Of a DNA stretch of 64,000 nt, positions 26,528 through 36,533 are shown piece by piece. The notes below the pieces were generated by a model that was not told the origin of the DNA, did not search any database, and worked only from the letters and a program-made list of their open reading frames with translations. Positions within the stretch are counted from its first letter, which is position 1. Each line of letters opens with the position of its first letter. Location: positions 42,989-106,988 of the forward strand of contig DUQG01000045.1 of NCBI GenBank assembly GCA_012837935.1, given 5' to 3'. The DNA comes from Bacteroidales bacterium (lineage in GTDB: Bacteria; Bacteroidota; Bacteroidia; Bacteroidales; Paludibacteraceae). The position numbers were made by a program, and so were the translations under genes.

Positions 26528-27196
26528 TTACTCCAATCTTATCACTCCAACCACAAGTGCAATACCGGTTATTTCTTCTAATGGAATAGAAAATGGCGGG
26601 TAGTCCTTATTGTCTGAAATTGCTAAAATAGAATCTCCGCCGTTTTCTTTAATCCGCTTAACTATTAATCCCTGCTCTCTGGTTGCGATAACATGTACCC
26701 TATTCCACTGAATAAACTGACTCTCCTTGATAATTTTACACGCAATAACATCTCCGCTGTTATACTTAGGATACATGGATGACCCGGCAACTTCAATCAT
26801 AAAATCAATTTTCCTGTCCTTAAACTTAGGGACAACATAGTAAGCCTTCACATCGGTAGCTTCAATCTTAAAATCGGCAGAACCAAATCCGGCAGCTACG
26901 CTTAAAGATACAAAAGGAATTGTATTAACTCCATCAGTAGGGTCAATTTTAGTTGCTTCCGGTTGTTCATTTTTAAACATTGATCCACTACCAGTTAAAA
27001 GCCATTCAGGAGAAATATCAGGAAAGTAGGATAATATATTAGCATACTTATCAGTACTTATTTCCCTTGGCTTGTCTAAAAAACCCTTTGAGACACCCAA
27101 ATCTTTACAAAATTTATATTTTGTAATATCCTTATTATCAATAACTTTTAAAATTCTTTCCGTAATTGACAAATTTTTATCACAATTTATTTGCAT
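26528..27196 (-). CDS. phage repressor, HTH + S24 LexA/CI-like peptidase
   Basis: C-term 'FMIEVAGSSMYPKYNSGDVIACKII' S24 motif. Start placed at MQINCDKN, inside the ORF that begins at 27235. Confidence 0.85.
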   Translation of the reverse strand: MQINCDKNLSITERILKVIDNKDITKYKFCKDLGVSKGFLDKPREISTDKYANILSYFPDISPEWLLTGSGSMFKNEQPEATKIDPTDGVNTIPFVSLSVAAGFGSADFKIEATDVKAYYVVPKFKDRKIDFMIEVAGSSMYPKYNSGDVIACKIIKESQFIQWNRVHVIATREQGLIVKRIKENGGDSILAISDNKDYPPFSIPLEEITGIALVVGVIRLE

Positions 27197-27214
27197 AATA
27201 GGATAATTTATTGG

Positions 27215-27223
27215 TATATTTGC
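27215..27223 (+). promoter_or_regulatory. putative early promoter -7 box TATATTTGC
   Basis: TAnnTTTGC with TTTG 21 nt upstream. Drives the early operon, divergent from the repressor. Confidence 0.55.
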
Positions 27224-27286
27224 AGTGTCTTTCAAATTGAAATGACGCTATAAAGGTCGGAATAATTTTTAATAAAACAATGAAAT

Positions 27287-27475
27287 ATGAGAAAATTTAT
27301 AAAAATGCCTCACGGGAAGTCGCAGGAACTTGAAAAACTATTCGGATGTTCCGCACCGATAGTTAGAGAGGCACTGAATTACAAAGTAAAAAAAGAACCG
27401 GAAGCCATAAAACTTGCACGAAAAATACGAAAAGCTGCCTTAGAAATGGGCGGGATTGAGTTTGAAAAGAAATAA
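27287..27475 (+). CDS. small DNA-binding protein (Ner/Cro-like position)
   Basis: First early gene divergent from the repressor. 'KSQELEKLFGCSAPIVREALNYK' HTH-like. Confidence 0.5.
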   Translation: MRKFIKMPHGKSQELEKLFGCSAPIVREALNYKVKKEPEAIKLARKIRKAALEMGGIEFEKK

Positions 27476-27497
27476 TAACCAATAAAATCACACGGAT

Positions 27498-27773
27498 ATG
27501 AATAAACCAAAGTACATCAGAATTTTAGAGCACCTTCATTACGGCGATAATATCCGTATTGGGGGAGCATTCATGATTTTAGACACCACAGCGGAAGGTT
27601 TGAATAAAGCGGAAGCGGATGTGATAAAAATGTATGATGATAGAAATGCTCATGACGGCGGCTTTATAAAAACTGCTGAAAAATATTACAGGCGAGTAGC
27701 AATCGTAGATGCGGATACACTTGAAGTCTTACGTCTAATTTACCCTAAAAATGAAAACATTAAACAGTATTAA
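27498..27773 (+). CDS. hypothetical phage early protein
   Basis: ORF with the CACACGGATATG leader. Confidence 0.6.
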   Translation: MNKPKYIRILEHLHYGDNIRIGGAFMILDTTAEGLNKAEADVIKMYDDRNAHDGGFIKTAEKYYRRVAIVDADTLEVLRLIYPKNENIKQY

Positions 27774-27909
27774 AACAGGACTTATCTGCACGGCATCGTT
27801 TATAACGATTGCGTGCTTGATAGGCTATTTGTTTGTAGGTGCATGGTACTTGCTCCTAATTGCGATTTTTTCATGTGTATTAGGATTGACACTCAAAGAA
27901 GATGAGTAA
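27751..27909 (+). CDS. small membrane protein, 52 aa
   Basis: ATG at 27751; MKTLNSIKTGLICTASFITIACLIGYLFVGAWYLLLIAIFSCVLGLTLKEDE. Confidence 0.5.
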   Translation: MKTLNSIKTGLICTASFITIACLIGYLFVGAWYLLLIAIFSCVLGLTLKEDE

Positions 27910-27929
27910 AAATTAAAAAGGAAATTAAA

Positions 27930-29951
27930 ATGGTAGAATATTATAATAACACATTAGTAGTGGAAGCAAGTTGGCTTGTGGACAATGAAATAATGTCTGA
28001 AAGTCAGTACCGACATGCAACCACACGTAAACAAGTTCAAGTTGTACGGCGGGGATGCCTGAACACTCCGGCTCTTGTTGCTTATGATAGTATGCCTGAC
28101 CGTTTTAAGCGGAAAGTGGTAGAGGTTATCGGTAAAAGTCCGTATGAGGTTATAAAGACCAACTACCTGCAAGAACTTATTGAAGATAGAGCGGATATTT
28201 CGGAGTTTTTTGAAAACTACAAACTGACAAATGGCCGATATATCCCGAAAAACACACGCCACGAGTACTATATCAATGCGATAGTATTGGAGGCAGTACA
28301 TATCATGCTGACCGATAAACGTGCAAGACGTTCGGCACTTGGACATAAAACCACAAAGATATGGGAAAAGATAGCTGAGGCAGTTATGGAACTTGACCGG
28401 ATACGTTTCCCGCACTCATTACCGTCCAATCCGAGACGATTGGAAGATAGATACAAACGGTACCGGAAAGAAGGTGCAGTGAGTTTGATACATAAAAATT
28501 TCACAAATAAAAATGCCGCTTCTGTGGATAGCGAAGTAAAAGAGAGCGTATTGGTAGAAATATTAGCCGCACCAAGTAACCTTGACAATGCACAGGTGGC
28601 TAAATTTTACAATATGGTGGCTGAAAAAGCCGGATGGAAAACAATTACTACCGGAACGGTGGCTAATTTCCGTGAAAAGCACGAAACAATGATATATCCG
28701 GGCAGACGTGGCTCAGTGGCATTTATGAATAAAAAGACAATGCAGGTTAAGCGTTCTGCCCCGAGTGCTCCGCTATACTACTGGACGCTTGACGGTTGGG
28801 ATGTGGAGCTTATGTATCAAAAACACGAAGGCAACCGCACAACCTATCATCACAGACCAACGGTTGTGATAGTATTGGATGCTTTTAATAAATACCCGAT
28901 TGGCTATGCCGTAGGAGATAGAGAAAATCCACAATTAATTCAGATGGCGCTACGCAATGCAGCGAAACATACTGAGGAACTATTCGGCAAAATGTATCGG
29001 ACGCACCAAATTCAGAGCGACCGCTACGCTATCAGCATGATGACACCATTCTACGAAACGCTTGCGGATAAAGTAACTCCGGCACGTGCGAAAAATGCAA
29101 AGGCTAAGATTATCGAACCGTATTTCGGGCACTTGAACAAAACCTATTGTCAAATACAACCAAACTGGAGCGGTTTCGGGATTACTTCAGATGCTGAAAA
29201 ACAACCAAACAGCGAGTTTCTTAATACATATAAAAAGAATTTCCCTGACTTTGATGGTGTATGCAAGCAGGTTGAGTTGATTGTATAGGCAGAGCGTATA
29301 CAAAAGGTTGAGCGACTAATGGAAGCTTGGAATGCAATGGCGGAAGATGACAAAATAGAACTTACCTACCAAAATTATTTATTACAGTTTGGCTCGACTA
29401 CCGGACGACCGATTTTAATGCAACACAACGGACTACTTCCAACAATTGAGGGTGTAAAAAGGACGTATGACTGTTTTGATGTGAATTTTCGCAAGCATAG
29501 CTCTGTAAAATGGAATGTGATGTATGACCCGGACGATATGAGCCGTGCGCTGGCGGTTAATGAGGAGCAAACGCTCCAATTCCTACTCGAAGAGAAATAT
29601 GTCCAACCAATGGCATTAAAAGACAGGAAAGAGGGCGACAGCGAGCAACTGCAACGAGTGAGAGAATTTAACCGGGAACTTATACAAGAAGTAACGGAAT
29701 TTAGAGCCGAAACCGCTGAACAAAGCAGAGGCATATTGGAAATGGTACCGGAACTGGAAACGCTGAAAAAGCTGGCGATAACCGACAGCAAAGGTCAGCA
29801 TAAGAATGAGAGAAACAAGGCTCGGTTAGCCCCACCCCAGCCCTCCCCTCACTGGGAGGGTGATGTCGGACAGGAATGTCCGACCCCCGTAAGAGTGGTT
29901 AATCAAGTGCAGGCTGAAATAACGGAAACATCGTATTTGGATAAATTATAA
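27930..29951 (+). pseudogene. Mu A-like DDE transposase with in-frame TAG at 29286-29288
   Basis: ORFs 27930-29288 and 29319-29951 share one frame. rve-like core 'YYWTLDGWDVELMY', about 670 aa like MuA. Confidence 0.85.
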
Positions 29952-29977
29952 AATAAATCAATTAAAAACACACGGAA

Positions 29978-30226
29978 ATGAAAAAACACAACTGTATCTC
30001 TGAAATCAGAGAAAATATTAAGAAAATGGAACCAAATGTTGCATACGTTCGATTTGATTTAGCTGATGTTCATAGCGACGACTGCAATGTTTTGATGACA
30101 GGTCAAAGAATTGACGTAGGAATTAAGAAAAAAAAGCGTAATGGCGAGGAAAAAATCGTAAATGAGAAATCATTTGTAGCACATAATTATTGTCCATTTT
30201 GTGGAAAAAAATATACATCATTTTAA
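29978..30226 (+). CDS. hypothetical protein with C-terminal CPFCGKKY zinc-knuckle-like motif
   Basis: ORF with CACACGGAAATG leader. Confidence 0.6.
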   Translation: MKKHNCISEIRENIKKMEPNVAYVRFDLADVHSDDCNVLMTGQRIDVGIKKKKRNGEEKIVNEKSFVAHNYCPFCGKKYTSF

Positions 30227-30268
30227 TATATCGGACGGGAATGTTTAATCCCCTAAAATCACACGGAT

Positions 30269-31141
30269 ATGGTACTAACAGACAATGTAAAAAAGGAAAT
30301 CGTAGATAAGCTGATTGCTTATTGCGACAGGTACGAAAGCCAAAACAAAGCGGCTAACACGCTTAAAGGCGTGAGTTCGGCAACCATTAGCCAAATGATA
30401 AACGGCAAGTGGAAACTGATTGCCGAGAATATGTGGCGAAACGTAGCAAGTCAAATCGGATGGCGGGAGCATGAGTGGAACTCAGCAGTAACATCTAATT
30501 TGAGAGAACTAAACAGTTTCTACACAACGGCACAAGAGCAAAGTATGGTGCTGGCTATCACAGCCGAAGCCGGAACCGGTAAAACATGGGGTGCACGTGA
30601 GTATTGCTCCAACAACCGGAGTGCCTACCTTATTCAATGTAACGAGTTTTGGAGCAAAAAGACTTTCCTTGCGGAGTTGAGCCGAGTGGTAGGAATAGAC
30701 AATAGAGACCTTACCATGGGCGAAATGATGCAGGATATTGTATGGCAACTAAAAAGTGATAACAAGCCTATCATCATTCTTGATGAGGCTGATAAACTGA
30801 GCGATGGTATCCTTTATTTTTTCATTACGCTGTACAACTATCTGGAAGACCAATGTGCATTGGTACTGCAAGCGACTGACTATCTCGAACAACGGATGAA
30901 ATCCGGATTGCGGAAAAACGCAAAAGGTTTCCCTGAAATATGGAGCCGTGTAGGCAGGAAATGTATCAAATTAGATGGCGTAAGTGCGGACGATATTCGG
31001 AATATTTGCCTTGCTAACGGCTTAACAGATGAACGAGATATTGAAGTTGTGGTAAATGACAGCGAGGGCGATTTTAGACGTGTAAAACGGAAAATACAGG
31101 CGATTAGAAATAAGCGGCAAGCAGTAAGCAGCAAGCAGTAA
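30269..31141 (+). CDS. Mu B-like AAA ATPase transposition protein
   Basis: 'ITAEAGTGKTWGAREYC' Walker A, 'PIIILDEADKL' Walker B, N-terminal HTH. Confidence 0.88.
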   Translation: MVLTDNVKKEIVDKLIAYCDRYESQNKAANTLKGVSSATISQMINGKWKLIAENMWRNVASQIGWREHEWNSAVTSNLRELNSFYTTAQEQSMVLAITAEAGTGKTWGAREYCSNNRSAYLIQCNEFWSKKTFLAELSRVVGIDNRDLTMGEMMQDIVWQLKSDNKPIIILDEADKLSDGILYFFITLYNYLEDQCALVLQATDYLEQRMKSGLRKNAKGFPEIWSRVGRKCIKLDGVSADDIRNICLANGLTDERDIEVVVNDSEGDFRRVKRKIQAIRNKRQAVSSKQ

Positions 31142-31146
31142 GTATT

Positions 31147-31527
31147 ATGAAAATAAGAATTATCTCCGGTCGACTTGGTATGTCAGGAACTAACATTCAA
31201 TTTCAAAACGAAGACTTCTTTACTCTGAAAGTTGGCGATATGGTAAGAAAAATTGGCGATGGAAGAGAACACGGATTAAAGCGAACTGATGAGTTTGTAG
31301 AGCCGATAGAATATGTGGGTTCAATTATATGTCAATTTTCAGAAAAGGAAAAAATGTATGCGTTTAGATTGCCGCAAATAATCAACAATGAAAACTTGTA
31401 CCTTTTATATGGGAAAACCGACAGTGAAGTTTTTACAGAGAGTATTTATTCCCCAAAAGGAAAGAAATCATACGTGCGGTTTTATGAACCAAATTTTGTG
31501 AAATTGAGTGATAGCAACAACAATTAA
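31147..31527 (+). CDS. hypothetical phage protein
   Basis: ORF in operon. Confidence 0.55.
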   Translation: MKIRIISGRLGMSGTNIQFQNEDFFTLKVGDMVRKIGDGREHGLKRTDEFVEPIEYVGSIICQFSEKEKMYAFRLPQIINNENLYLLYGKTDSEVFTESIYSPKGKKSYVRFYEPNFVKLSDSNNN

Positions 31528-31583
31528 AGAATGTTTAACTGGTATTTGAAAGGTAATAAATCCCCAATATTGGGGCGATAATT

Positions 31584-32189
31584 ATGCGGATAAAGCGAGC
31601 GTTAACGGTCAATGAGATTAGGAATTTTAAGCCGGTAGAACTTGAATTTGAGGGAAAGTGGAAGGATAGCATCGGTACACCGGAACTAACAGGCACGTGG
31701 CTTATTTGGGGCAATTCTGCCAACGGTAAAACTCGCTTTGCACTGCAACTGGCTAAGTATTTAAGTAGTTTTCGCCGTGTGGCTTACAACTCTTTGGAGG
31801 AAGGGCTTAGTAAGTCTATGAAGGAGGCGATATTAGACACCGGAATAGGTAAAAACTTTGTCCTTCTGGATAAAGAGCCGATTGAACAACTGAAAGTGCG
31901 ACTTCGTAAACGGAAAAGTCCGGATATTATTTTTATTGACAGTCTCCAATACACCGGATTAACCTACGCCGAATATAAACGGCTACGGGATGAGTTCCCA
32001 AATAAGCTCTTTATTTTCATTAGCCACGCAGAAGGTAACGAACCGAGGGGAAATGTAGCCCGCTCAATCAAGTATGATGCTTTTGTGAAAATACCGGTAA
32101 TCGGTTATGCGGCTTACCCACAGAGCCGATATGGAGGAGGCGAAAAGTATGTGATATGGCAGTGGGGATATGATAAATTTAATGTATAG
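31584..32189 (+). CDS. RecA/AAA-like P-loop ATPase
   Basis: 'WLIWGNSANGKTRFALQLA' and 'DIIFIDSLQYTG'. Confidence 0.65.
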   Translation: MRIKRALTVNEIRNFKPVELEFEGKWKDSIGTPELTGTWLIWGNSANGKTRFALQLAKYLSSFRRVAYNSLEEGLSKSMKEAILDTGIGKNFVLLDKEPIEQLKVRLRKRKSPDIIFIDSLQYTGLTYAEYKRLRDEFPNKLFIFISHAEGNEPRGNVARSIKYDAFVKIPVIGYAAYPQSRYGGGEKYVIWQWGYDKFNV

Positions 32190-32263
32190 CCCCAATCCCC
32201 TACGGGACTTTCCCCACAAGTGAAAGGGATAAGAAAAAATAATTTATTTAAAACAACACGGAT

Positions 32264-32713
32264 ATGGCAATAACATTAATGGAACAGGAACAAAAGAGGC
32301 TTCTAAAAAAATTCCACACGCTGCTGGGAAAAGCGGGTTTAGGTGCGGACGAAAAAGAGGCAATCCTTGCCGGATACGGCGTGGAGAGTAGCAAGGAACT
32401 GACGGCTTATGAACTGTTGGAGGCTTGCAATCAATTAGACAAAATGAGTAATCCGAAAGCGGCAGAAATGGACAAATGGCGTAAGCGTGTGATAGCTTCA
32501 ATATTTAGTTATTTCGGTGCATTGGGGCTGCAATCGGATATGAACCGAGTAAAAGGCACGGCGGCTCGTGCGGCACGTGCAGAAACATTTAACGATATTC
32601 CACTGGAACAGCTTAGAACTCTTTACTCCGCTTTTAGCAAAAAAGCCAAAACAGTAGAGCATGTGGATATAGTAACAGAGGATATTATCAATGAACTAAA
32701 ACTACTTAACTAA
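32264..32713 (+). CDS. hypothetical early protein, possibly GemA-like
   Basis: Position and 'LHTLLGKAGL...YGVESSKELTAYELLEA'-type pattern. Weak. Confidence 0.4.
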   Translation: MAITLMEQEQKRLLKKFHTLLGKAGLGADEKEAILAGYGVESSKELTAYELLEACNQLDKMSNPKAAEMDKWRKRVIASIFSYFGALGLQSDMNRVKGTAARAARAETFNDIPLEQLRTLYSAFSKKAKTVEHVDIVTEDIINELKLLN

Positions 32714-32775
32714 AGCCCCCCTCCGGCTCCCCCCGCAAGGGGGAGAGAAATGGGTGAGGTAAAAAACTAATAAAC

Positions 32776-32979
32776 ATGATTTTTTGGAATGAACGGACAA
32801 AAGAACTCGACCGGCAAATAAAAGCTGCCGGGATTGTAACACCAAAACGAGTGAAAAAGAATACTTGGTATCGCAACTTTTTAGCTGCGATGATATGGTA
32901 CGGTCGGTTTATGAGCAACCCGAAAAATGTAGAACTGATAATGAGAATGAAACTTATTAATAACAATTTTAATTTTTAA
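32776..32979 (+). CDS. hypothetical phage protein
   Basis: ORF in operon. Confidence 0.5.
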   Translation: MIFWNERTKELDRQIKAAGIVTPKRVKKNTWYRNFLAAMIWYGRFMSNPKNVELIMRMKLINNNFNF

Positions 32980-32983
32980 TCAC

Positions 32984-33505
32984 ATGGCAAAAAGAACAAA
33001 AAAAATCGTCCACACGGGCGTAACAAGTGAACAAATGGAGCAGGCATTTAGCGACTATGCTATTGCCGATGCAAGAGCGGCAAAGATAAACGCCGGAATT
33101 GATGAACAAATGACTAAAATCCGTGAGAAATGGGCGGATGAGTTGGCAAAGCTGACGGAACGAAAAGAGAAAGCCTTTGACATCATGCAAACCTGGGCGA
33201 TGGAAAATCGGGACGAGGTTTTTGCGAAACGGAAAAGCTACGAAAGTACACACGGAACTATCGGTTTCCGCACCGGAACCCCGAAACTGAAAACACTACG
33301 AGGCTTTACTTGGGCTTCTGTAACTAATCTACTAAAAGAGTTTCTACCGAGCTACGTCCGAATTTCAGAGGAACCTGCAAAAGACAAACTGCTTGCAGAT
33401 AGAGACGTTCCCGAAACGGCAGAACTGTTTGAAAAATGCGGTTTCAGCGTGGTACAAGATGAGACGTTTTATGTGGAACCGAAAAAAGAAGAAAATTCTA
33501 ATTAA
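32984..33505 (+). CDS. gam: Mu Gam-like host-nuclease inhibitor
   Basis: Coiled-coil N-term and 'THGTIGFRTGTPKLKTLRGFTW' Gam signature. Confidence 0.85.
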   Translation: MAKRTKKIVHTGVTSEQMEQAFSDYAIADARAAKINAGIDEQMTKIREKWADELAKLTERKEKAFDIMQTWAMENRDEVFAKRKSYESTHGTIGFRTGTPKLKTLRGFTWASVTNLLKEFLPSYVRISEEPAKDKLLADRDVPETAELFEKCGFSVVQDETFYVEPKKEENSN

Positions 33506-33688
33506 AAGCTGAATAGCTTACTCTCCATCGCTCGCTTGGCTGCGAGTGGTGGAACATAAACCGCTACCGATGGCGTTCGGTGCGGCGGGCAGATGCAAAC
33601 GGGAAGGTATCTGCCCGGGACTGATTTTTTATTAACACAGGGGATACGACAGGCGGGAGTGCCTATCCCCATTAAAACACACACGGAT

Positions 33689-34639
33689 ATGGTATATGGA
33701 TACGTACGGGTAAGTACAGATACACAGGATGTGGAAGCTCAGAAAATAGGAATTGAAGAAAAAGCAAAAATTTTGAATTTATCTATTGATAGATGGATAG
33801 AAGATGACGGTGTAAGCGGCACTACTGAATTTCAAAAGAGAAAATTAGGAAAATTGATGAAAATTCTAAAAGAAGGAGATGTCATAATTGCTTCTGAAAT
33901 AAGTCGTTTTGCCCGTAAACTTTTTCTTTTATTTGAGTTTTTGGGATTTATTACCAATAAAAAAGTGGAATTGTGGACTGTAAAAGACAATTACCATTTA
34001 GACGGTTCCTTACAAAGTACTATTATGGCATTTGCTTTTGGTATAGCTGCACAAATAGAGCGAGATATGATATCGCAACGAACAAAAGAAGGATTGCAAC
34101 GAAGACGAATGGACGGCGTTATTCTCGGTCGCCCAATTGGAGGAAAAAACAAACCCTCAAAGAGAATTGAAGCAAAAATTCCGCTTATTGAAAAATATGC
34201 GAAAATGGGTTTGTCCTATTCCACTATTGCAAGATTAACGAAACTGCATAGACTTACTGTTGCTAATTATTGTAAAGAGAATGGATTTACCGAGCAGTCA
34301 GAGAGATATAAAAATTCAACAAAGCATATTCAAAAGAGAGCTGAAGAAAGGAAGTTGTCCAAATCATTGAAACTATCAGCTATTAATATTACACCGGAAT
34401 ATTTAATAGATGAGTTTAAAAACAATTTTTATAATATCAGCAACTTGGCAAAATCCATAGAAATACCTGTTGGACAGTTAATGGGGATGATAAAAACGTA
34501 TGGTCTTGAAGAAGAATTGGCAAGGCTACAAGCAGAAGCACGTGAAAAAAACCCATCACTTTCTGCCCAAGGTAGAAAGTTAGGACTTTCTGACACCAGA
34601 GATGTTAGGCGTTATATCAACAATCATAAAAACCAATGA
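33689..34639 (+). CDS. serine recombinase (resolvase/invertase family) with extended C-terminus
   Basis: 'VYGYVRVSTDTQDVEAQ', 'IASEISRFAR', 'ERDMISQRTKEGLQRRR'. Start at 33689 with CACACGGATATG leader. Confidence 0.88.
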   Translation: MVYGYVRVSTDTQDVEAQKIGIEEKAKILNLSIDRWIEDDGVSGTTEFQKRKLGKLMKILKEGDVIIASEISRFARKLFLLFEFLGFITNKKVELWTVKDNYHLDGSLQSTIMAFAFGIAAQIERDMISQRTKEGLQRRRMDGVILGRPIGGKNKPSKRIEAKIPLIEKYAKMGLSYSTIARLTKLHRLTVANYCKENGFTEQSERYKNSTKHIQKRAEERKLSKSLKLSAINITPEYLIDEFKNNFYNISNLAKSIEIPVGQLMGMIKTYGLEEELARLQAEAREKNPSLSAQGRKLGLSDTRDVRRYINNHKNQ

Positions 34640-35445
34640 AACGATTTTGGACACCGGAGGAGATTGAACTCTTAAAAGAAAAGTACCCGATATCTACTCC
34701 GGCAGAATTACAAGCACTTTTCCCGAATAGAACATATTCAGCAATAAAAGGGAAAGTAAAGGCACTGAAACTATTGAAAGCAAAACAGCGTTTTCGATTT
34801 TCGCCTTCACAGATTAAATACCTTAAACAGAATTACTCGAATACACTTAATCGGGATTTGGCGGATTACTTTAGATGTGAAATAGGTACGATAGAGAATA
34901 AAGCTTTTGAACTTGGATTAAAAAAAAACCGAAGTTTTATAGCTGAAATTGCTCGTAAAAATATGGCATGTCCACATCATCCCGGTCGTAAGAGTTGGAT
35001 AAAAAAGGGTACTGTCCCGCCAAATAAAGGGAAAAAGCAAATCGAGTACATGACACCGGAAGCAATAGAACGTACCAAGGCAACACGTTTCAAAAAGGGG
35101 CAACGAGTATGGAACCATAAGCCAGTTGGGTATGAGAGGGTTAATACATCCGGTTATACAGAAGTAAAAACAGCCGAACCTAATAAATTTGAGTTGAAAC
35201 ATCGGGTTATCTGGCGACAGCATTATGGTAAAATCCCCAGAGGGCATAATGTTCAGTTCCGGGATGGAAACCCACAGAATTTTAATATTGAGAACCTTTA
35301 TTTGATAAGTCGCAGCGAGCAGCTAAGTAAAGAAAATAGCATACATGCCCGCTACCCAAAAGATGTGCAGTTGGCAATTCAAATGAAAGGAGCATTGAAT
35401 AGGTATATAAATAAAATAAAGAATAACAACGATTCAGCGGTTTAG
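34636..35445 (+). CDS. HNH endonuclease with SANT/Myb-like N-terminal repeats
   Basis: 'FWTPEEIELLKEKYP...RTYSAIKGKVKAL' and C-term 'HRVIWRQHYGKIPRGHNVQFRDGNPQNFNIENLYLIS'. Confidence 0.8.
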   Translation: MKRFWTPEEIELLKEKYPISTPAELQALFPNRTYSAIKGKVKALKLLKAKQRFRFSPSQIKYLKQNYSNTLNRDLADYFRCEIGTIENKAFELGLKKNRSFIAEIARKNMACPHHPGRKSWIKKGTVPPNKGKKQIEYMTPEAIERTKATRFKKGQRVWNHKPVGYERVNTSGYTEVKTAEPNKFELKHRVIWRQHYGKIPRGHNVQFRDGNPQNFNIENLYLISRSEQLSKENSIHARYPKDVQLAIQMKGALNRYINKIKNNNDSAV

Positions 35446-35474
35446 GAAAACCGCTGTCCCTAAAACACACGGAA

Positions 35475-35831
35475 ATGAATAGAAAAGTAAACACAGGCAT
35501 CACTATGACGGACATACGTCATGAAGCGTTTGATGCCATTCAAAAGTTAAAAAGCGGCGAAATGGATGTAAAAACAGCCGCTGAAATCCGCAATTTGTGC
35601 GGTGTAGTAATTGACGTTGCCAAAACGCAAGTGGAATTTATGAAAGCCATCCCTAATGCAGTGAGAGAGCAAATGAAGCCGGAAGAGGTTAAAGCTATTG
35701 CGGGTACGCTGCGAGACCGAGATGCAGAGTTTGACGAAGTAATGTACGAGGTAGAAACTTCACAAGGTATTAAAACGTACGGACGAAAAGAAGTACCCAT
35801 AGAGCCAAGAGAAAGGAGCATAGGAGCATGA
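35475..35831 (+). CDS. hypothetical phage protein
   Basis: ORF, CACACGGAAATG leader. Confidence 0.55.
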   Translation: MNRKVNTGITMTDIRHEAFDAIQKLKSGEMDVKTAAEIRNLCGVVIDVAKTQVEFMKAIPNAVREQMKPEEVKAIAGTLRDRDAEFDEVMYEVETSQGIKTYGRKEVPIEPRERSIGA

Positions 35832-36227: not shown

Positions 36228-36533
36228 ATGATAAGCGAAGTAAGTATAATAACCGGAGTACCGGAACTGGTTATTTTAGAAAGTAGGAAAAACCCTATTT
36301 GTGAAATACGTCAGCTATATTGGAAGCTGATGCGTGAACACGGTTATTTTTATCAAGAAATTGCACGGTTATCCGGCAAACGAAACCATGCTACTATTAT
36401 TCTCGGCATTCGACATATAGATGGGATTATTAAAACAGACAAACAAATGGCTCAACTTTGGGAGCAAATAAAAAAAATCGAAAATGGAAGAAAAATTAAA
36501 TGCTTTGACAAAAGACAATGTGAAAAAATTTGA
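36228..36533 (+). CDS. DnaA C-terminal (domain IV)-like DNA-binding protein
   Basis: 'LYWKLMREHGYFYQEIARLSGKRNHATIILGIRHIDGII' resembles the DnaA signature helix-turn-helix. Confidence 0.65.
   Translation: MISEVSIITGVPELVILESRKNPICEIRQLYWKLMREHGYFYQEIARLSGKRNHATIILGIRHIDGIIKTDKQMAQLWEQIKKIENGRKIKCFDKRQCEKI

Follow-up and report, generated by a model that had tools for sequence, protein, structure and literature searches.

What does a short sequence do when it is repeated directly against the start codons of several unrelated genes in one phage? The question is raised by a 64,000-nucleotide stretch of contig DUQG01000045.1 (hereafter the window), from an uncultured Bacteroidia bacterium, which carries a Mu-like prophage in which the sequence NACACGGAWATG, referred to below as the tag, is fused to the starts of six early genes. 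The original prediction suggested that this shared leader may be a phage-specific translation-initiation element, or else an operator through which a translational repressor controls the early operon as a whole.

All six predicted sites were recovered, and each copy of the tag runs into the ATG of an open reading frame (ORF): CACACGGATATG at 27489, 30260 and 33680, CACACGGAAATG at 29969 and 35466, and AACACGGATATG, one base different from the other copies, at 32255. The pattern CACACGGA[A/T]ATG covers the sites at 27489, 29969, 30260, 33680 and 35466. Together with the ATG, and always on the plus strand, the longer tag spans 27484..27500 (AAAATCACACGGAT) 5' of the 27498 gene (91 amino acids, PHROG 35785, function unknown), where an insertion relative to the phage of G005, a host of the same genus, begins; 29964..29980 (AAAAACACACGGAA) 5' of the 29978 gene (82 amino acids, with a CxxC pair, accessory), a copy similar to the MuB leader of the G005 relative; 30255..30271 (AAAATCACACGGAT) 5' of the MuB-like ATPase (30269-31141), conserved in the phages of G005 and of a second host, G013; 32250..32266 (AAAACAACACGGAT) 5' of the 32264 gene (149 amino acids, weakly GemA/Mu gp16-like), identical at 14 of 14 positions in G005; 33675..33691 (AAACACACACGGAT) 5' of a serine recombinase (33689-34639, Resolvase domain); and 35461..35477 (TAAAACACACGGAA) 5' of the 35475 gene (118 amino acids, function unknown). 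The recombinase ORF has its first ATG at 33593, 5' of the tag, but homologs start at the methionine of 33689.

On the plus strand of the 38-kb phage part, ACACGGA[A/T]ATG was observed 6 times against an expectation of 0.025 under a first-order Markov model (Poisson P = 3e-13). WATG stands directly 3' of six of the eight ACACGGA copies on this strand. Antisense RNA or inverted copies were rejected as an explanation, since the minus strand of the phage holds a single ACACGGA, inside a late gene and with no WATG after it. In the whole 2.8-Mb assembly MACACGGAWATG occurs six times, every copy in the early operon, and zero copies of the tag precede late or host genes, as had been noted for the late genes inspected. 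A consensus of 20 sites from several phages, six variant sites included, reads as an A-run at -14..-11 followed by A-8 C-7 A-6 C-5 G-4 G-3 A-2 H-1 ATG; the core of the predicted motif stood, while its width did not, the conserved unit reaching 5' to the A-run. The tag is asymmetric, confined to a single strand and in fixed register to the ATG in 6/6 cases. Sequence 5' of about -16 is not common to the copies, and the genes behind them are unrelated.

The motif search that had been proposed, across the genome and related phages, gave a favourable outcome: copies were found in Mu-like relatives and not at host genes, with the tag present in several phage contigs from metagenomes and in related prophages of two further hosts. 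The G005 phage (contig SAAL01000002.1) has three tags, namely TCACACGGAAAATG after the first gene, TACACGGACATG at MuB and AACACGGATATG at the ortholog of 32264. The G013 phage, an 8.5-kb contig also found in IMG/VR, has exact tags at MuB and at one accessory gene, with CACACAGAAATG and AACACAGACATG at two other starts. Among metagenomic relatives, the position of the 32264 ortholog carries CATACGGATATG in L152-L156 and GACACGGAAATG in L194/L195; an accessory gene of L194 carries TACACGGAAATG, and in L163 CACACGGATATG follows Gam. CACAC(A) also stands directly 5' of an ATG at L194:1339, L155:5620 and L191:5880, possibly as a precursor or a decayed form of the tag.

Tagged leaders are also conserved beyond their neighbors. 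In orthologous pairs compared with G005 and G013, the leaders of the tagged MuB and 32264 genes match at 10-14/14 positions vs 2-7/14 for untagged leaders, and the proteins of tagged and untagged genes are equally conserved in these pairs; the two tagged leaders are retained although protein identity falls to 52-78%. In an unsupervised scan for 8-mers repeated at starts across 125 phage loci, the window ranked top (7; best shuffle 3) and the G013 phage next (4), both with the same motif; one other locus also reached 4, with a k-mer that includes ATG and looks spurious. No other Mu-like phage with a convincing tag of its own was found among the 125 loci, and the well-described relative hankyphage p00 is without the tag. 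A widespread phage signal was rejected: among the matches listed for viral contigs, those outside the relatives of this phage hold single copies only. The tag is rare both in the host and in other phages.

Several features bear on the level at which the tag acts. TAnnTTTG is the -7 promoter element of Bacteroidota. The sole plus-strand match to this short pattern, which is common by chance, between 26.2 and 35.1 kb is TATATTTG at 27215..27222, a candidate early promoter by predicted position, and a single early transcript is therefore likely. Internal promoters and leaderless transcripts were rejected on the same ground, one candidate serving the whole operon, and most tagged genes have no -7-type promoter match upstream. 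No tag occurs in the repressor/early promoter region at 27196-27287. The fixed register to the ATG, single orientation and asymmetry, combined with the lack of internal promoters and the absence from the promoter region, strongly argue for action in the RNA, at the translation start.

On balance we lean towards the view that the tag is a lineage-specific start-associated element of a group of Mu-like Bacteroidota phages. It would act in the mRNA, where translation of certain early genes begins, and would be recognized by a sequence-specific factor. The A-run at -14..-11 and A-6 would retain features favored by the host ribosome, while ACACGGA at -8..-2, set against the ATG, would serve as a phage-specific recognition block. 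A polycistronic early message would thus offer the same landing site at several starts, at which a factor encoded by phage or host could adjust initiation of the tagged genes jointly. The claim of a phage-specific element tied to the translation start is supported. That of action on the whole early operon did not hold, as about half of the early genes are untagged (27287, MuA at 27930, 31147, the ATPase at 31584, 32776, Gam at 32984, HNH at 34636, 35828 and 36228).

Several observations weigh against this view. No factor was found, nor any gene family exclusive to tag-bearing phages, several of the contigs being partial. Predicted unpaired probability averages 0.68 at tagged vs 0.59 at untagged starts, which is not clearly higher. 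MuA, Gam and the ATPase are untagged, so that the tag is dispensable for essential early genes. Finally, some relatives have a looser CACACAC-ATG leader, and this could be mere A/C-rich drift.

We also weighed the possibility that the sequence itself raises initiation on Bacteroidota ribosomes blind to the Shine-Dalgarno (SD) sequence, through bS1 or the mRNA channel and with no dedicated factor. Among 105 sampled host leaders, A occurs at 62% at -3 and -6, and an A-run lies at -14..-10. The A-run and A-6 are common to tag and host leaders and help Bacteroidota ribosomes (PMC6847099), and their retention favors such an intrinsic effect, as do the position of the tag directly against the ATG and its presence on acquired genes that need expression. 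C-G-G at -5..-3, in contrast, belongs to the tag and is avoided by host leaders, with CGGA close to the ATG in 0/105 leaders; a merely efficient sequence would be expected in host use, yet the genomic copies are phage-only. In the EF-Tu leader of Flavobacterium johnsoniae, A-3G lowered expression by 70%, an effect the authors suspect to involve folding (PMC6847099); that G-4 and G-3 are nevertheless kept suggests specific recognition. Complementarity of the tag to 16S rRNA, taken from relatives' rrn loci since the window's own assembly is without 16S, does not exceed that of shuffled motifs. An SD identity was likewise rejected, as the original prediction had argued from spacing: GGA lies one base from the ATG, where a purine-rich SD core would stand about 5-9 nt away, and the tag has neither an SD core nor pairing with the relatives' 16S. 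A signal of the host at large was rejected as well, using one genome per species. Exact matches in the genomes of 60 relatives fall mostly away from gene starts and are unclustered, the two clear exceptions among 29 loci read being inside the Mu-like prophages of G013 and G005; a longer pattern yielded no further clusters in about 690 genomes. The lack of host copies, the disfavored G at -3/-4 and the strict conservation point to specific recognition over plain efficiency. We therefore regard an intrinsic enhancer as unlikely, and consider the case for a trans-acting factor to be moderate.

The tag may also mark seams where new genes enter the operon, as comparison with relatives suggests. Tagged accessory genes, mutually unrelated, comprise 27498, 29978, 33689 and 35475 in the window, two in G013, one in L194 and the one after Gam in L163, and four of the six copies in the window precede genes that the closest relative lacks. 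Homology between the window and G005 stops where the tag does, at 27496, and picks up again at 27748, where the gene starts that in G005 comes directly after the tag; the 27498 gene occupies the gap. The G005 MuB leader is similar to the leader of 29978 (29960-29983); in the window, 29978 sits between that tag and a second tag at MuB. The junction of the acquired gene thus coincides with the tag in two cases. In the MuB tree, G013 falls in a different subclade from the window and G005, on well-supported branches with untagged alleles between, yet it has the exact tag, while window, G005 and G013 form one clade in the GemA-like tree. These results indicate that the tag is tied to its place in the operon, whichever lineage the gene behind it comes from.

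Such findings would also suit a recombination linker, a short shared seam 5' of the ATG that lets ORFs be swapped or inserted and is kept as homology, not as a regulatory signal: the homology break around 27498, the placement of 29978 between two copies at the MuB start, the tagged accessory genes and, in G013, the same tag at a MuB from another lineage are all consistent with it. A linker, however, could do without a spacing to the ATG that is fixed at one base, homologous recombination would have only 12-16 bp to work with, which is short, and the conservation of tagged core-gene leaders between diverged phages, where neighboring untagged leaders are not conserved, goes unexplained. We consider a linker alone quite improbable. 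If the tag is instead an element read by a factor, ORFs inserted behind the block would come under common control because it ends exactly at the ATG, and the block would double as a seam of gene gain. We propose only tentatively, and with considerable doubt, the fuller scheme in which Bacteroidota Mu-like phages evolved their own start-codon address, with a dedicated factor, common translational control of chosen early genes and a docking seam for in-register foreign ORFs.

A DNA-level operator or transcription signal (a repressor, pause or terminator site) placed at gene starts by chance would fit several same-orientation copies within one operon, as in the stoperators of cluster A phages, which also occur as multiple copies in one orientation. 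We judge this very unlikely: the tag is not palindromic, is registered to the base against the ATG, is missing from the repressor/early promoter region, and lies at genes that mostly lack an upstream -7-type match. Equally remote is a neutral leftover, in which copies recently spread with inserted genes and divergence is still to come, since, although the closest relative has no counterpart of the genes behind four of the six copies and the motif is limited to few phages, the downstream genes are unrelated, nothing is shared 5' of about -16, and the MuB and 32264 leaders are conserved where untagged leaders are randomized.

Among known systems, the closest are the Start-Associated Sequences (SAS) of cluster K mycobacteriophages (Pope et al. 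2011, PMC3203893; survey PMC12699233), which are contrasted with stoperators in PMC3203893. Both are short asymmetric repeats in one orientation at start codons of non-structural genes from different families, with many copies in one phage group and almost none in hosts; a translation role has been proposed for SAS, whose function is unproven. SAS, however, are defined by the consensus GGGATAGGAGCCC with up to two differences, hold an SD core 3-7 bp from the start and occur in 11-19 copies, of which roughly half are preceded by inverted repeats (ESAS) (PMC3203893). ACACGGAWATG is unrelated to that consensus. Whereas SAS have the SD AGGAG and partial 16S pairing, the tag has no SD core and no complementarity above shuffles, lies one base from the ATG in at most six copies and has no conserved inverted repeat, and SAS phages are actinobacterial. 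By consensus, then, the tag is not an SAS, though it appears SAS-like in working.

The operators of T4 RegA are unstructured sites with a 5' A-tract overlapping or abutting the AUG on many early mRNAs (PMC3014915); the tag has the A-tract and the AUG, and its predicted accessibility is only slightly above that of untagged starts. RegA sites are A+U-rich, have no clear consensus and serve a known phage repressor that competes with the ribosome, while the tag is a strict ACACGGA. T4 RegB acts at a GGA-type motif in early-gene initiation regions (PMC3014915), but cuts GGAG/U within SD sequences, whereas GGA in the tag is followed by A, T or C; no nuclease was identified for the tag. The Mu Com/mom system offers translational control within a Mu-like phage. 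Com activates mom by remodeling structure on one late mRNA, whereas the tag is linear and stands at many early genes. Neither a RegA-like nor a Com-like regulator was found, and the repressor-operator reading of the original prediction is possible. The Kozak-like, A-rich leaders of Bacteroidota share the A-run at -14..-11 and A-6, but have A at -3 and no fixed motif where the tag has C-G-G at -5..-3.

Little work has addressed how phages order translation in Bacteroidota, whose ribosomes are blind to the SD, and a conserved, phage-only start-codon tag provides a directly testable handle. With it, the idea of start-associated sequences reaches beyond mycobacteriophages to a group of phages not related to them, which suggests that start signals peculiar to phages may be a strategy that recurs. 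The tag is also an example of genes being acquired with the junction at the start codon.

The surrounding early operon has the features of a Mu-like phage, holding in its early region a small first gene, MuA-like transposase, MuB-like ATPase, a second ATPase, a weakly GemA-like gene, whose match comes from the G005 ortholog of 32264, and Gam. Adjoining the candidate early promoter on the minus strand is a divergent gene (26528..27235, ATG start at 27196; G005 homolog 71%), presumed from its position to encode the phage repressor. The first gene of the operon (27287..27475, plus strand, PHROG 16858) is untagged and Ner/helix-turn-helix-like by position. Also untagged, on the plus strand, are the ATPase (31584..32189, PHROG 6891), the Mu Gam-like end-protection protein (32984..33505, Gam match) and the MuA-like transposase (27930..29951). 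The last is interrupted by an in-frame TAG at 29286-29288, while the homolog in G005 is intact (659 amino acids); the prophage may therefore be defective, unless the TAG is read through or reflects an assembly error.

Several tags have short palindromic repeats (GGACAGGAATGTCC, GGCGGGAGTGCC and the like) immediately on their 5' side, and such repeats also occur within the C-terminal region of MuA; they lie at 29825-29900, 30243-30255, 33640-33673 and 35440-35460 and are not in G005. Hairpins upstream of tags (30243, 33640, 35440) were for this reason rejected as part of the element. Between Gam and 35828, the serine recombinase, HNH endonuclease and 35475 gene (33593-35831) together make up an acquired block, and homologs of the latter two lie close together in L159. 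Further downstream, a small early protein (36228-36533) matches the DnaA C-terminal DNA-binding domain (Bac_DnaA_C) at the cut-off.

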